IMG/VR virus record: IMGVR_UViG_3300047382_000720
Location: 1 to 29,363 of that record
DNA: 29,363 nt
DNA from: a virus
Direction: 5' to 3' (one strand)
Made by a program: the position numbers and the translations under genes. Below are positions 53 to 14,500 of this stretch, piece after piece. Below the pieces are notes generated by a model. The model was not told where the DNA came from and did no database searches. It worked only from the letters and a program-made list of their open reading frames with translations. Numbering within the stretch: the first letter of the stretch is position 1; each line of letters opens with the position of its first letter.

Positions 53-81
53 ATTATACGTGTCTCTGAGCATATTGTCAA
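53..81 (-). promoter_or_regulatory. sigma70 promoter for the gene at the left edge
   Basis: On the minus strand, TTGACA (81-76), a 17-bp spacer and TATAAT (58-53) match the sigma70 consensus exactly. It lies just past the stop of the 79-residue gene and drives the leftward gene starting at position 7. Confidence 0.85.
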
Positions 82-583: not shown

Positions 584-613
584 TTGACAAGATGGTGGTA
601 GGTTTGGTACAAT
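584..613 (+). promoter_or_regulatory. rightward promoter P1 with GC-rich discriminator
   Basis: TTGACA (584-589), an 18-bp spacer and TACAAT (608-613) are followed directly by CGGCGCC. No gene with a Shine-Dalgarno site follows, so it probably reads into the downstream RNA unit. The discriminator shares CGGCGC with P2. Confidence 0.65.
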
Positions 614-681
614 CGGCGCCATTTTGTCACACCAAAGACTAACCACTTGTGAATAATTTGCCACCAACTTACAAAAAAGAC

Positions 682-710
682 TTGACATCGTTTCACAACT
701 GTACTATAAT
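682..710 (+). promoter_or_regulatory. rightward promoter P2 with GC-rich discriminator
   Basis: TTGACA (682-687), a 17-bp spacer and TATAAT (705-710) are a perfect consensus, followed by CGGCGCG. Transcription should begin near 717. A GC-rich discriminator after the -10 box is typical of stable-RNA promoters under stringent control. No protein start follows, which supports an RNA product. Confidence 0.8.
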
Positions 711-742
711 CGGCGCGAGGTACACCAACTACTTCGTCGTCG

Positions 743-770
743 TACTACTACTGGCGCCCCCGCGCCAAAA
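743..770. repeat. 28-bp hairpin repeat, copy 1
   Basis: This copy is identical over 28 bp to 840-867, with start points 97 bp apart. It consists of three TAC/ACT steps, then a perfect 5-bp stem GGCGC/GCGCC around a CCCC loop, then AAAA. Such an exact copy in an intergenic region implies selection or recent duplication. Confidence 0.85.
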
Positions 771-839
771 TATAGACTATGACCTTTTGCAGCAAATTGG
801 TCACACGTTTTCGGGCAACACCACAAATAATCGTTGTAA

Positions 840-867
840 TACTACTACTGGCGCCCCCGCGCCAAAA
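840..867. repeat. 28-bp hairpin repeat, copy 2
   Basis: This is the second exact copy of the 28-bp element at 743-770. It lies about 20 bp before the bidirectional terminator. Confidence 0.85.
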
Positions 868-883
868 ATAAAATGTCAAGCCC

Positions 884-925
884 AAAAAAATCCGCAAAAT
901 TCAGTTTTTGCGGATTTTTGGTTTT
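884..925. terminator. bidirectional intrinsic terminator
   Basis: A 14-bp stem, AAAAATCCGCAAAA paired with TTTTGCGGATTTTT around a short TTCAG-type loop, is followed by T-rich runs in both directions. It would end the rightward RNA unit from P1/P2 and the leftward operon whose last gene stops at 947. The two units therefore converge here. Confidence 0.8.
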
Positions 926-930
926 TAGCG

Positions 931-946
931 TGTTCCATGTGGAACA
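931..946. promoter_or_regulatory. parS-like 16-bp palindrome
   Basis: TGTTCCATGTGGAACA has perfect 7-bp arms around TG. It differs at one base from TGTTCCACGTGGAACA, a known form of the chromosomal ParB-binding site parS. It sits between the terminator and the stop codon of the 47-residue gene. No parA or parB gene is in the window, so host ParB binding is a hypothesis. Confidence 0.45.
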
Positions 947-1090
947 TTAAAAAATCTGGGTCAAAATAATTATTTGCAAAACGATTGCCAAAATTGGGCA
1001 AATGGTGCGTATAATTTCAAGTCTCAATTTGAGGCGGGCAAGCTCCGCCTCTTGATCGATTATTTTATCTTGCAATTCAATATTTTTCAT
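947..1090 (-). CDS. small coiled-coil/membrane peptide, 47 aa
   Basis: This short gene is easy to miss. Its ATG overlaps the TGA of the exonuclease gene as ATGA, and GGAG lies 8 nt upstream inside the exonuclease's last codons. The peptide has a charged helical N-terminal half with a Glu/Leu/Arg heptad look (residues 3-27) and a hydrophobic segment near residues 29-46 that ends at the C terminus, so it is probably a membrane-anchored peptide. It is the last gene of the leftward exonuclease operon and stops just before the parS-like site and the terminator. The GAGGCGG/CCGCCTC inverted repeat at 1031-1051 lies inside it. I do not recognise a family. Size and topology would fit a small superinfection or inhibitor peptide, but that is speculation. 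Confidence 0.65.
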   Translation of the reverse strand: MKNIELQDKIIDQEAELARLKLRLEIIRTICPILAIVLQIIILTQIF

Positions 1091-1749
1091 TTTCCTAGCT
1101 CCAAGATTTGAGCGCGGGTAGTATCGCGCAAAATGTAGGTTAAAATCATAGCTTCATAATCGCGCGCATCTTCTAGCGCGGTGTGGGGTTCATCAGCAAG
1201 CGAACCTTGATATTCTGTATCAGCAATATATTTTGCCATAGCATCAGCAGTCATTGATGGCTTGCGAAGTTTAGCAGTTAGCAAACCGCGCGCCTTGCAA
1301 AAATCTTGGTAAGAAGCCAAAACGCCAATTTTGCGTTTTGCGGATTTCATCAAACAAAACCGAGAGCCGAAAATCCCCAAGTTAATGCGCGTATTTCTGC
1401 ATTTGCCAAGATCAAAAGCCAAATTATAAGCCGTTAAGGTGGGATTGTAGCGCGCCTTGATGCCAGCCAGCCATTGATTAATTAGGGCAGGGCTTGAGAT
1501 TGAGCGTTCGCCTGATTCGAGCATATCGTCATAATTTTTAGCCCTACGATAGGCGGATTGTTCCGACCAAAACGCATCAGCATCAGCAGATGGATCAGAA
1601 AATAGCGGTAATTTGCCAAAGTGTCCGAGAACCATAGCCCCGAATTGTTCGACAATCTCACCCTGTTTGGTAACAATTACCGCGCCAAAGTCCGCAACAG
1701 TCCCGCGTTGAGTTGTCTCAGTGTCTACGATTAAATAGTAGTGTCTCAT
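1087..1749 (-). CDS. DEDDh-type 3'-5' exonuclease (DnaQ/RNase T superfamily)
   Basis: This 220-residue protein shows the three Exo motifs of the DEDDh family. Exo I is VDTETT with Asp9 and Glu11. Exo II is in LTAYNLAFDLGKC with Asp113. Exo III is DEPHTALEDARD with His189 and Asp194. The family removes nucleotides from 3' ends using two metal ions held by these residues. Phage members act in proofreading, DNA recycling or RNA turnover. The length fits a stand-alone exonuclease with no polymerase attached. Its ATG overlaps the stop of the phosphatase gene (TAATG), so the two are co-translated and probably act on related nucleic-acid ends. The operon promoter is at 2450-2478. The substrate, DNA or RNA, cannot be told from sequence. 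Codons here are rich in GCG and CGC, unlike the late genes. Confidence 0.9.
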   Translation of the reverse strand: MRHYYLIVDTETTQRGTVADFGAVIVTKQGEIVEQFGAMVLGHFGKLPLFSDPSADADAFWSEQSAYRRAKNYDDMLESGERSISSPALINQWLAGIKARYNPTLTAYNLAFDLGKCRNTRINLGIFGSRFCLMKSAKRKIGVLASYQDFCKARGLLTAKLRKPSMTADAMAKYIADTEYQGSLADEPHTALEDARDYEAMILTYILRDTTRAQILELGK

Positions 1750-2225
1750 TATTTAGCCCCCATTGAAGCATTGATTTGAATAGCATTTTTTGCCGTAATT
1801 CCTAGATCTTGAGCCATAGCCAAGACCGCCTGATTATCATCATAAAAAACCGCGTTCCGAGTCCATCTAGCCAAAGGAATATTTTTAGATGCAAAGTAAT
1901 TAATTAATAGATCGCGTTTCATTTCAGCATCAGCGCGATTATCACCCATCGCCCGCGATAGAATATAATCAGCGCGCAAATTATTATCAGCTAGATAACA
2001 ATGATCATGCACCGATAAAACGCGCGCGGTGCATATGATAACATGATGCCCGTTAGAATAAACCGAACGCATCAACCGAGCCAGTGGCAAAAGTTTATCT
2101 TGATTAATTTTTTCGCGGGTACAATTCGCAATCCAGTTATCAAGGTCAAGAGTACCATCAGCGCGCGTCAATTGGCGGTGGCTTGAGTCTATAACAGTGT
2201 GATCAAGATCAAATATATAATTCAT
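1749..2225 (-). CDS. HAD-superfamily phosphatase resembling the T4 Pnkp phosphatase domain
   Basis: This 158-residue protein has the four HAD motifs: DLDHT near the N terminus (nucleophile Asp6, acid/base Asp8), motif II ICTAR with Thr66, motif III Lys103 in EMKRD, and motif IV FYDD with Asp129 and Asp130. The segment GDNRADAEMKRDLL followed by FYDDNQAVLAMAQDLGI resembles the T4 polynucleotide kinase 3'-phosphatase domain, which removes 3'-phosphates from nucleic-acid ends. No kinase domain is present. It lies between a small membrane protein and the exonuclease in one leftward operon. A 3'-phosphatase next to a 3'-5' exonuclease suggests end repair or nucleic-acid salvage. It could instead be a nucleotide phosphatase (5'-nucleotidase type), since the substrate cap is minimal. 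The fold assignment is firm and the substrate is inferred. Confidence 0.85.
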   Translation of the reverse strand: MNYIFDLDHTVIDSSHRQLTRADGTLDLDNWIANCTREKINQDKLLPLARLMRSVYSNGHHVIICTARVLSVHDHCYLADNNLRADYILSRAMGDNRADAEMKRDLLINYFASKNIPLARWTRNAVFYDDNQAVLAMAQDLGITAKNAIQINASMGAK

Positions 2226-3278: not shown

Positions 3279-3307
3279 TTGACAATTTTTGAAAACTACG
3301 ATATAAT
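3279..3307 (+). promoter_or_regulatory. sigma70 promoter of the first late module
   Basis: TTGACA (3279-3284), a 17-bp spacer and TATAAT (3302-3307) are a perfect consensus. The expected transcript start near 3314 rules out an upstream TTG codon at 3307 and supports the GTG start at 3331. Confidence 0.9.
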
Positions 3308-8533: not shown

Positions 8534-11500
8534 TGTCATCAGATGGAATTAGTATTTCAATCACCGAAGATGTAACAAAAGTAGAGGTTACAGAAGATGT
8601 TACGACTATCAATATTACGCCAAGCGTAACAACGGTTGAAGCTAAAGGAATTTCCATAGCGAATGCTTCAGCAGCAACTGCAGTAACTTATCAAGGCTCT
8701 AGTAATACTCTTGGAACAGGTGGAAACGTAGCAGCTTCCCTCGACCATATTAATACGAACGGCTTTAACGTAAACACAGATAATACTGTAGATGGTAATA
8801 TTACTTTTGCAGGAGATACTAGACACATATATTTTGGAGATACTAATACTTTTATTGGAGAACATTCTACCTCTAATAAACTAGAATTGAGAGGGGGCGG
8901 TTCCCTGTCATCAGAAACAGTTTATATCGATAACTCTGGAAGTGTTGGTATTGGTACAAGTACCCCCGCATCCAAACTAGACGTAGTTGGTACAATCACA
9001 TTCGATGGTGGTACAACTTCTGCAGATCTAAACTTTGGGGATGACAATAAGGCTACCTTTGGTTCAAGTAATGACTTGCGCATTTATCATGATACAGCCA
9101 GTTTCGAAAGCCCACTTGGAGGTCAATCTGTGATCGAAGATGTGGGCACCAATGGACTGCATATTTCTAGTAACGGAAATGGTATATTTTTAGAAAACGA
9201 TTCTAAGCAGAAAGCCCTTGCCGCATTTACTCTGGCTGGAACTTCTCCATTTATCAGATTATACTATAATAACTCCTTAAGATTAGAGACAACTGCCAAT
9301 GGCGTAGCTGTTACGGGCGAAGTAACTGCAACTGAAAAAATGGAAGCGCCACTCTTTAAAGGTGATTTAGAAGGAGCAGTACATTTTAAAGCATCTGGAA
9401 GTGGTCTAGCAAAAGGCGATGTTGTTTATATTTCTGGATATGCAGGGCAACGAACTACTGTAGACAAAGCAGATGCTTCTGACTCAGCAAAAATGCCCGC
9501 ATTTGGTATTGTAAATGCAACACAAGGAAATAATAATGTAGACATACTTACTTTTGGTAGTATGTTACACCTTTCCACAACCGGTATTGCAACCGGAACA
9601 GAATTATATGTATCCGCCACCACTCCTGGCGGCTACGAAACTTCCGCACCTACGGGTGAAGGAAACCTAGTACAAAAAATCGCAAAAGTAGTAAGAGGTG
9701 ATAGTAATAGCGGTAGTATTAAAATTATGGGTGCTGGGCGTACAAATGCGACTCCAAACCTAAATAACGGTAATATCTTTATCGGTAACTCGAGCAATAT
9801 TCCTACTACTGCATCTTTTGATACAACTTTTGGAACTTCTTTCGGAACTCGTACAACCACAGATCTTACAGAAGGCGATAATGAATACTTCACCCCTGCT
9901 AGAGCAGATGCTCGAGTCGACCTTCAAACAGGCAGTAACCTAGATCTTAGTCAAAAGACTACAACAGAGCTTGCCGAAGGTGATAACGAATATTTCACCT
10001 CTGCCAGAGCAGATGCTAGAGTAAATACAGTACTAGGTACAGGCGTAGATAATATTGTTACTACAGGGTATTTAAGGGGTCCGAGTACTTTTACTATCGA
10101 CCCTGCAGGGCACGGTAATGATACTGGAAAAGTAGTAATTGCAGGTGATTTACAAGTTGACGGTACAACTACTACTATTAACTCTACTACTCTTGACGTA
10201 GCAGATCTAAATATTACTGTTGCAAAAAATGCTACTACCTCAGCCGAGGCAAGCGGTGCAGGGTTGCTTATAGGCGGTACTAATTCAGGCATATTTTGGA
10301 ATGGCTCATTAGAGGAGTTAGGTATTTTTGGCAATACTCAAGTCAATGGTAACCTTTGGATAAAATATGCTCTTTTAGATGACGGTAAAAACCCAGGCAC
10401 TACAGGTCAAGCACTACTTTCCAAAGGATATGGTGGAGTAGAGTGGGGCGATATTTCCACAACTCTAAGTGTTGAAGCAGATAGCGGAGATACACAAGCA
10501 ATAGAAATGCTTACTGAAACTCTCGATATCTCAGGTGGTACAGGAATTAGTACAGCAACCACAGATAATACTGTAACTGTTACTTTGGATAATACAGCTG
10601 TTACTGCAGGAACTTACGGAGCTGCAGAAACAATTCCCCAGATTACAGTAGATGATCAAGGTCGTATAACTAGTGTAAATAATCTTACAGGAAACTCCGG
10701 TCCTCGAGGAGCACACGCAGCTACTACATTTGACTATAAGTTTAACCTAAATGACGTAGCGTCTAGTAATGACTCAACGTACTTATCCCTGTCTAGTTAC
10801 GACTATACAGCATCAGATTTAAAGTTGTCTGTAAATTATACTGATAACAACTCTAATGATTTAACAGATCTTATTAGAGAAGTAACGACTGTAAATAGTC
10901 ATATTACTTTAATAAATAATGAAGACCCCGAAAAGTTCGTAGTACTTAAAATCACTGATGCTCACAGAGATACTTCCGTAGGCTCGGGTCAGTACGAATC
11001 CCTAGTAGTTTCTGTAGAGCGAGTAGCGGGTGTGCTAGGATCAACTTCAGGTACAGAATATCAAAATATGGTAGCAGGCTTGGCAATAGGAGATGGAACA
11101 GACCTTCCTTCTCAGCCTTTAATTACTGCAGCTTTTAATAAAGCGGGAGAACTAGCAGCAATACCTGCAGGCTCATTCAACTACACAAATAACTATAATA
11201 CAGTATTAGGAAATGCTCAACATGTCAGTGGTGGAATCGCCTTTAACAACTGGGATTATACTGCAGCTACTTCTATATCACTAAGTAAGACTGATTCAAA
11301 CTCTAACAATGTTGAGTCTCTTATAGAAGATTTGTTGGGCAGTAATGCTCTTCCTGTTAAAGCTCTTATTACTATTACAAATCAATTAAACCCTTCTAAA
11401 TATGTAACTTTTGAAGTAGATACTATAAGTGGTTTTAATTCAGAGCTCACAGATTCTATAATTGTAGCCGTAGACTATAAATCAGGTTTAACAGGTAAAG

Positions 11501-14500
11501 ACTCTAACGGGGATACTACCGATTCAGCAGGCCTTGTACCTTTGTACGGTGTTGGCTCCGGACCTCTCGCAGTTAGTATACTAAAATTACCTAATAGATC
11601 TACTATTGATACAACAGGAATAGTTTATGGAGTAAGGTATAGTAATGACTTAACAGAAACCTTACCCTCAGGTCAAATTGCTTTTAGCTCTCATAGTTAT
11701 ACTGATAGTAATCTTCAAATTAAGTTACATAGTACTTCTAACGAAAATTATTCTGTAAAAGACTTTATTCGAAATTCAGCCACAAGTACTGCTACGCCTA
11801 AAGGACACCTACGACTAACATCATTAGTAGATAATGACCACGCACTATTTGAAATAGATGGGATTGCTGATAGTACTAGTAACGATTATACAATACTAGA
11901 TTTAACTCATGTTAGCGGATCCGCAGGTAATGTATCCCTTGCGACAAAAGACTTAGTGGTAGTAAGTCTACAAAACGCTGCTGATATTGGTGGAATTGGA
12001 CCGGACGGAGCAAATGCAGCATCTACTTTAGAGTATAATTTTAATTCTTCTATAGGAACCTCTCCAAATTCGGGGAAGATTCAGTTAAATAAGTGGGACT
12101 ATACTCTTTCAAGCATGAAACTGGGCATTAGTAATACGATACCGGATACTACTGATGTAACAGATTTTATTCGATATGTAACAAGTAGTGTAAATTCCAG
12201 CGCTAAAGGCTATATTACAATTACAAATGAAAAAGACAGAAGTCGTTTTCTTGTACTAAAAATTACAGACGATTATTATGACGTTTCGTCTAGCGACGTT
12301 ACCGTAGTATCTGTAGAAAGAGTAGCAGGGTTAGAGGGAGGCAGTAGTTTATCCGATACACTAGTGGGTTCGACCCTTAATCCAACTATGTTAGTGTCTT
12401 TCCAAAGAGCAGCAGATTTTGGGGATATTGATGCTCATCTTAATGTAAGTACTGCAAATGCTAATGAAATACTATCATGGACAGGTAGTGATTTTGCGTG
12501 GGTAGCTGATCAAACAGGTAGTGATGTTAGAACTGTTAAAGTTGATACTGATAATGATGGAACTGCGGATGCAACATTAGCTGCGTCTGAAGAATTACAC
12601 TTAATTGGAGGAACTAACGTTACTCTAGCGGAATCTGGGGGCGTCGTTACAATTAATTCATCTGCCAGCGGTGATGTTAACCAAAACGCATTTAGCAGTG
12701 TAATTGTTAACGGACAAACAACTGTAGCTGCAGATACTACTACTGATGCGCTCACACTTGTAGCGGGTAATAATATAACCATTACAACTGATGCTAACAA
12801 TGATTCAATTACGATTAACTCATCCGGTGGCGGTGGCAGCGGAACTGCTGGTCTAGTTCAAGATGCTGATGGTGATACAAAAATTCAAGTAGAAGAAGCG
12901 ACTGATGAAGATATAATTAGATTTGATATTGCTGGCACAGAGTTGCTGACACTTGATGCTGACGAGCTTGAACTAAAATCTACTGATCTAAAGATAACAG
13001 GTTCCGGAACTGGATCAGATTTATCAAGTACTATTTCTCCAAGCAATACAAACTCTGTAACTGCCTGGAAAAATACCGGTAAAAGCTCATCAACTGGGGT
13101 TGATGAACAGGTTCATAGTGTATATTTAAGTCCAAACGGCACGACTTTAGTGTTTAATACTGATGCCGAGACCGGGGACTCTGTTGTAAAGCAAACTTTA
13201 AGTACAGCGTTTGATATTTCTACTGCAGGCAGTGCGACGACTGATAACGTAATGAGCGGAATATCTTCAAACCAAGAAACAGTTTTTGATTTAACTTTCA
13301 GCAATGATGGTTCTAAATCCTTTGCAATAACAGAGTATAACGGATCATTTGACAGACAGTTAGTATATTGTGAACCTAGCACAGCTTTCGGACCGGACTT
13401 TGGATCTATTGTTAACTTGTATTTTTGGACCGCTAACATGGGCAATGCTTCAAATTATATTCCTAACAGTATTGATTTTAGCACTGATGGTACTAAAGTA
13501 TTTTTTGGTGGCTATAGCCGCTATAATAGTTCTGATTTTTATGTTTGGTCTTATAGCTTATCAAATGCCTTTGATTTATCCGATATTTCAACTTCTACTA
13601 CTAGTACTAGTAGAATAATAAATGTTAGTACGGGTATAAGTGCAATAAATCTTACATCTTTACTTAATAATAAAAATATTAAAATAAACTCTTTAGATTC
13701 GGTGAAATTTTCATCAGATGGTAAAACTTTTTATATTTTAGATTCAGTATTAAAGAATATAAGGTCATTTGCTCTTTCAACCGCATGGGATCTCACTAGT
13801 ACGGTGACATCTTCGGGGTCGCAAAAAATAAGTGTAATTGAATCAACTCCTAAAGCGCTCTGCGTAGATACTGCAAATAATATAGCTTTAATAAGTGGTC
13901 TAGTGAGTGAAAAGATTACTCAATTTAGCCTTGATCATTCAACTCTAGAAGTAGTGTCTGAAGCTACCTCATTTGATGGAAATCTTTTTGTTGCGGGTGC
14001 TCTACAAATAGATGGAGATATTAACCTAACTCAGAATTTAAATAGTAATAATACTTTATCAGAGAGAGTAGTTTCGGAAACCTCTTTAGAGAGCGGATCT
14101 ACTTTTATAGTTAAAGGTCCAGTCCTCGCGAATGATGCTAATACAGTTCACTCTGTAGATCTCTCTAATGCTGCAGAAGTAAACTTTAGTACTAGTGCTA
14201 ATGGAGCTGCTCCACCTTACTCAGTATACTTACCAGGCCATAAATTGAAAAACGGAGATAGAGTTGTTTACTCTAGCGAAAATCAGGGCGGAGCACTCTA
14301 TCTTGATACTAATTATGCTATTGTAACTGGAGACTATATACAGTTTGGTCGACGCTTAACTGATGCTGTAGCTGTTCCACCTATATACAAAGATCTGCAA
14401 AGTCCATCGATAACTAACTCTAACTATGCTGGACAGAACGATCATACTTTTAAGGAAATGAAAAGTGAGATAAAACTAGAGGGTCAAGATATTGAAATAG

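Follow-up and report, generated by a model that had tools for sequence, protein, structure and literature searches.

A recurrent non-coding promoter and dyad array beside a parS-like palindrome in T5-like phages, and its likeness to the T5 injection-stop/nick region

What might a phage gain from a short stretch of DNA that is crowded with host-type promoters and exact repeats but appears to encode no protein? The locus that raises this question lies in a 29,363-base virus record of IMG/VR, the whole of which was analyzed and is called the window here. The window is a fragment of a T5-like phage and encodes a large terminase, whose best named relatives are those of T5-like phages at ~50% identity, a portal, and a fused protease/major-head-type protein. 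A single frame at 26064-28118 matches the families of both the head maturation protease and the major head protein, which T5 encodes separately. Six related records contain many T5 homologs in T5-like modules, including a split NAD ligase, D5, a DnaB-like helicase, a polymerase, SbcCD, and capsid and tail genes; in most of them, the array of promoters and dyads described below is located 2-3 kb from the switch of leftward genes to rightward late genes. Judged from the kind of metagenomes and from the relatives, the clade is probably marine. Phage tmRNA genes (marked tmRNA* by ARAGORN) were also seen in the loci L008 (6044-6365), L024 (8504-8957), and L036 (2174-2483), with the tags ANDDVYQLAA, ANDDVYTLAA, and ANDDVYSLAA, respectively.

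The sequence-only reading had proposed a probable phage small RNA, in which two promoters read into a gene-free region with two identical C-loop hairpins and a strong terminator. The parts that it described are indeed present. Both promoters and the terminator hairpin were confirmed (Table 1), and the two 28-bp copies at 743-770 and 840-867, each with a GGCGC/GCGCC stem and a CCCC loop, match exactly and, when lengthened to 37 nt, still agree at 92%. Two copies of the dyad, GGCGCCCCCGCGCC, are present in the window versus 0 expected from shuffles. Beyond the first description, both promoters belong to one ~97-nt duplicated pattern. The transcript from P2 is predicted to start at ~717, and the RNA from 717 to 925 has a predicted fold of -61 kcal/mol (z -4.98), to which the terminator stem and two short GC stems contribute most. 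The window holds three more perfect TTGACA-17-TATAAT promoters, at 372-400 and 53-81 (- strand) and at 3279-3307 (+ strand); two are leftward and one is immediately before a 1035-codon frame.

Table 1 Features of the array and its flank in the window
Feature	Position	Strand	Remarks
Sigma70-type promoter P1, TTGACA-18-TACAAT, then CGGCGC	584..613	+	11/12 consensus matches, extended TG
Sigma70-type promoter P2, TTGACA-17-TATAAT, then CGGCGC (711-716)	682..710	+	12/12 consensus matches
Repeat copy 1, TCGTCGTCGTACTACTACT + dyad + AAAA	734..770	+	
Dyad 1, GGCGC-CCCC-GCGCC	753..766		Begins 36 nt past the end of the P2 GGCGC
Repeat copy 2	831..867	+	
Dyad 2, same sequence as dyad 1	850..863		
Intrinsic-terminator-like hairpin	886..919	+	14-bp stem, then T-rich sequence
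parS-like palindrome TGTTCCATGTGGAACA	931..946		One change versus TGTTCCACGTGGAACA
Gene between array and dmp homolog	1087..1749	-	Weak 3'-5' exonuclease-like match that falls short of the Pfam cut-off
Homolog of T5 dmp (pre-early deoxynucleoside-5'-monophosphatase)	1749..2225	-	HAD/PNKP phosphatase family

The element recurs widely among viral sequences. The exact 23-mer ACTACTACTGGCGCCCCCGCGCC was found in 34 other viral stretches, a 17-mer lacking the dyad's right half in 37, and a promoter-only pattern in 98, some of them by chance. Counting as an array locus any promoter with a dyad no more than 450 bp away yielded 92 loci in IMG/VR, or 67 after near-duplicates were collapsed; L089 and several loci of the promoter scan (e.g., L063, L066, L072, and L082) were apparent chance promoter matches and were left out of the array count. 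Across 11 array-bearing records (46-101 kb), matches to the promoter pattern fall only within the array, one to three per record (a twelfth record in this search was a chance hit), and each record examined carries one array. A window-derived pattern with AACACC between promoter and repeat gave no matches, and no DNA similar to the element was found in named phages. Among cellular genomes, a 19-mer matched one contig of genome_contigs, a Hymenobacter chromosome, with no promoter/dyad match in the locus, and this candidate was dismissed as chance.

Protein coding was likewise rejected as the origin of the array. The 106-codon frame in the window matched no Pfam family, and the longest frames spanning the last dyad, on either strand, differ widely among the 67 arrays, with none conserved. 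Nothing in the window reached the gathering score in Rfam 15, which gave weak sub-threshold hits only, in agreement with the view that no known RNA family fits. Overall, the element is real, widespread, and non-coding, and it matches no annotation or family in the searches made.

Conservation was assessed in 52 distinct cases in which the last AGACTTGACA-type promoter precedes a parS palindrome, with no dyad required. This set omits 35 loci without a parS within 600 bp, a mixture of arrays and chance hits, some of which (L059, L061, and L062) show no dyad after the promoter. An exact GGCGC-N4-GCGCC dyad lies between promoter and parS in all 52 and is directly preceded by ACT in 51; the spacing from the end of the promoter GGCGC to the ACT-dyad is 36-38 nt in 43. 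The two GGCGC starts are thus ~42 bp apart, about four helical turns. The 27 parS-anchored cases that came from the promoter-only scan (L055 and above, counted by hand) all carry the dyad, so its conservation was not produced by the query.

While the GGCGC/GCGCC flanks are invariant whatever the loop, the N4 loop itself is CCCC in only 30 of the 52, CCGC in nine, GCCC in five, GCCG in three, GGCC in two, and one of three others once each; given this variation, the C-rich loop was rejected as a conserved active site. A terminator-like hairpin follows 11 of 63 arrays versus 4.0 expected. The lack of conservation in both loop and terminator argues against a small RNA acting through a C-rich loop. 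More generally, a trans-acting transcript of ~200 nt whose exposed loops bind targets would agree with the strong promoters, the predicted hairpins, the lack of a conserved frame, and the base 3' of the dyad, which across 86 distinct dyads is always a purine (A in 67, G in 19) and never C or T, as a sixth RNA pair (U-A or U.G) would require. However, the stem never covaries, and the leader is rewritten between lineages, with TCGTCGTCGTACTACT before ACT in some and the TTCGCTTTCGC type in others; in L014, the leader string is found inside a promoter spacer. What stands of the sequence-only reading is a conserved, promoter-driven, non-coding region not covered by Rfam, whereas its loop and the 3' end of its RNA are not maintained. 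The small-RNA reading is therefore weakened, and we consider it decidedly unlikely; the array instead has the look of a docking site for host proteins.

Two further motifs were noted. GTCAAG[CG], the reverse complement of the promoters' CTTGAC, occurs 44 times on the array strand in 39 of the 67 loci, often right after the last dyad. Sigma54-type promoters were weak, with a strict pattern in 3 of the 67 loci, and were discarded as an array feature.

In 52 of the 67 arrays, the palindrome GTTYCAYRTGRAAC lies no more than 400 bp from the last dyad, and it occurs nowhere else in those loci; it is absent from the other 15, in three of them because the locus ends within 100 bp. The strict pattern was present once each in six of 12 full records searched, and others have one-base variants. 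By the consensus in the literature, we take this palindrome to be bacterial parS of the TGTTYCACGTGRAACA class. Its sequence suggests a host-type parS and hence a candidate ParB site. The ParB_N family was not found in the 11 array-bearing records, all of which may be incomplete, and was detected in 10 of 14 control genomes. As far as titles and abstract openings reveal, a phage that carries a host-type parS but in which no ParB is detected apparently represents an unstudied case. Fur-box-like palindromes (GAGAATNRTTCNC class) are 18.6-fold enriched in the arrays (12/67 loci), and similar ones are present in the T5 injection stop signal (iss) and in a region of Vibrio phage PG07. The loci with such palindromes within ~400 bp of the array include L065, L077, L079, L095, and L018.

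Such a cluster of sigma70 promoters, parS, and Fur-box-like palindromes could in principle be a sponge, whose chief role would be the titration of RNA polymerase, ParB, and Fur. However, one parS per record and one to three matching promoters are not enough sites to titrate host proteins ahead of replication, and a sponge needs neither fixed spacing nor fixed position. We regard this explanation as very improbable.

All 40 loci that continue for more than 3 kb beyond the array have a dmp homolog there, 0.7-2.0 kb away; the promoters point toward dmp, and the parS palindrome lies between the array and dmp. Homologs of the intervening gene of the window (1087..1749) are present at 29 of the 67 array loci. 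In addition, 16 of 90 left contig ends fall within 500 bp upstream of the first promoter, a number that array truncation may inflate; an excess of this kind is what the end of a terminal repeat would give.

A replication origin is a rival reading. Transcription from the tandem promoters would open the DNA, the displaced strand would fold into the GGCGC hairpin, and replication would be primed there, with parS proximal to the origin as in bacterial chromosomes. The primary origin of T7 similarly has tandem promoters reading into non-coding DNA, although the array promoters are of the host type and their origin role is only proposed. Mean GC skew is about -0.09 to -0.13 on the left of the array and steps up to ~-0.01 on its right. 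At third positions, with gene strand kept constant, the skew is -0.070 on the left and +0.076 on the right, and the right side has the higher value in 37 of 42 loci; the slope of the cumulative skew shifts at the array in two near-complete records. However, these loci are not independent since the same genes recur at the same places, and gene direction also flips ~2-3 kb from the array. A strand-corrected fit to six records placed the best switch point near the array in two, 5-10 kb away in three, and elsewhere in one. Moreover, the skew minimum of T5 is at 53.7 kb, far from its iss. Because the skew shifts at the array even with gene strand constant, the origin keeps some weight, but we consider it unlikely.

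We instead favor, at about even odds (a probability of roughly 0.5), the reading that this DNA corresponds to the injection-stop/nick region of T5 and that a clade of uncultured T5-like phages has remodeled it into a docking site for host proteins. By analogy with T5, the dmp side would enter the cell first and the array would enter last within the leading segment. Host RNA polymerase would then load on the tandem promoters and fire back toward the DNA already inside, host ParB would load on parS, and the polymerase and ParB complexes would hold or mark the boundary until uptake of the remaining genome. The GGCGC sites may be nicked late in infection, in the way that the R/GCGCRGG sites of T5 are, and the short array RNAs may be by-products or auxiliary. 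A more specific proposal, which we rate as improbable, is that ParB at the single phage parS and polymerase firing backward from the phased promoter/dyad array act as a brake or ratchet where the first part of the genome to enter meets the second. If so, these phages would exploit the host chromosome-segregation clamp together with RNA polymerase to control DNA entry.

The mid-entry pause of T5 DNA is described as still poorly understood in PMC13250531, which presents the T5 iss as a region of repeats, palindromes, and DnaA boxes whose transfer mechanism is likewise unclear. A diverged natural family separates the kept parts (promoter, fixed spacing, GGCGC dyad, parS, and nearby dmp) from the free ones and makes it testable whether host polymerase and ParB are located at the entry boundary.

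In T5 (AY543070), the iss spans 9140-10149 with the major nick at 9748, and both are at the inner end of the terminal repeat, whereas dmp is near the outer end, which enters the cell first. The distance to dmp differs, being ~8-9 kb from the T5 iss and 0.7-2 kb from the array. The motif TCG[GC]NTTTGCAC occurs in the arrays 26 times on the promoter strand (19/67 loci) and never on the opposite strand, with 0.09 expected, and is absent from 670,559 bp outside the arrays; it was picked after both sequences had been viewed, and these counts are descriptive. The 111.5 kb of T5 searched contain nine copies, all on the nicked strand; seven of them lie at 9764-10489, within the annotated iss or shortly beyond it. 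The TGTCGGATTTGCACA repeats of T5 run from 9764 past the annotated iss and the terminal repeat (10219) to 10489, and one more is at 12165.

The T5 nick consensus is given as R/GCGCRGG in PMC3517423. The nicked strand of T5 reads TGTCGGATTTGCACAAAA/GCGCAGGGC, with the slash set from the GenBank position and the published consensus, and the - strand of dyad 1 in the window, GGCGCGGG, fits the same consensus. GGCGCRGG reaches densities of 1.18 and 1.29 per kb on the two strands of the arrays versus 0.01 elsewhere, an enrichment of more than 100-fold, the GGCGC part having been preselected; RGG follows GGCGC in 32 of 134 promoter matches. Within the dyad, the full R/GCGCRGG arises only with the loops CCCC, GCCC, or GGGC (36/52).

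Consensus sigma70 promoters, the GGCGC-N4-GCGCC dyad, and parS set the arrays apart from the T5 iss, and neither DnaA boxes nor A1/A2 partners were found for them. The DnaA box TTATCCACA was found in none of the 67 arrays and the looser TTWTNCACA in 21. A1 and A2 are needed for second-step transfer in T5, and blastp at 1e-4 gave no hit to them in the six records and array loci, a search that distant homologs may escape. The region at 109.6-111.1 kb of Vibrio phage vB_VpS_PG07 (Demerecviridae) resembles the arrays in its repeats, in TTTTGCACT and TTTCGCACT beside GGGGCGCAG, and in its Fur-like palindromes, but has three DnaA boxes, no parS, and no R/GCGCRGG; a scan of it revealed no TTGAC-type promoter. 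The array palindrome shares its sequence class with bacterial parS, yet here it is in phages, and the arrays differ in carrying it from both T5 and PG07. Because of this difference, and because DnaA boxes and A1/A2 were not found, we did not file the array as a member of the T5 iss family. Nevertheless, arrays and T5 iss are both non-coding and repeat-rich, lie in a segment bounded by dmp, and contain the oriented motif TCGSNTTTGCAC (not found in the window's own array), Fur-box-like palindromes, and, with a partial fit, the R/GCGCRGG motif; multiple repeats and palindromes are features of a T5-type injection stop signal. Position and partial sequence likeness thus suggest that the array is a counterpart of the T5 iss.
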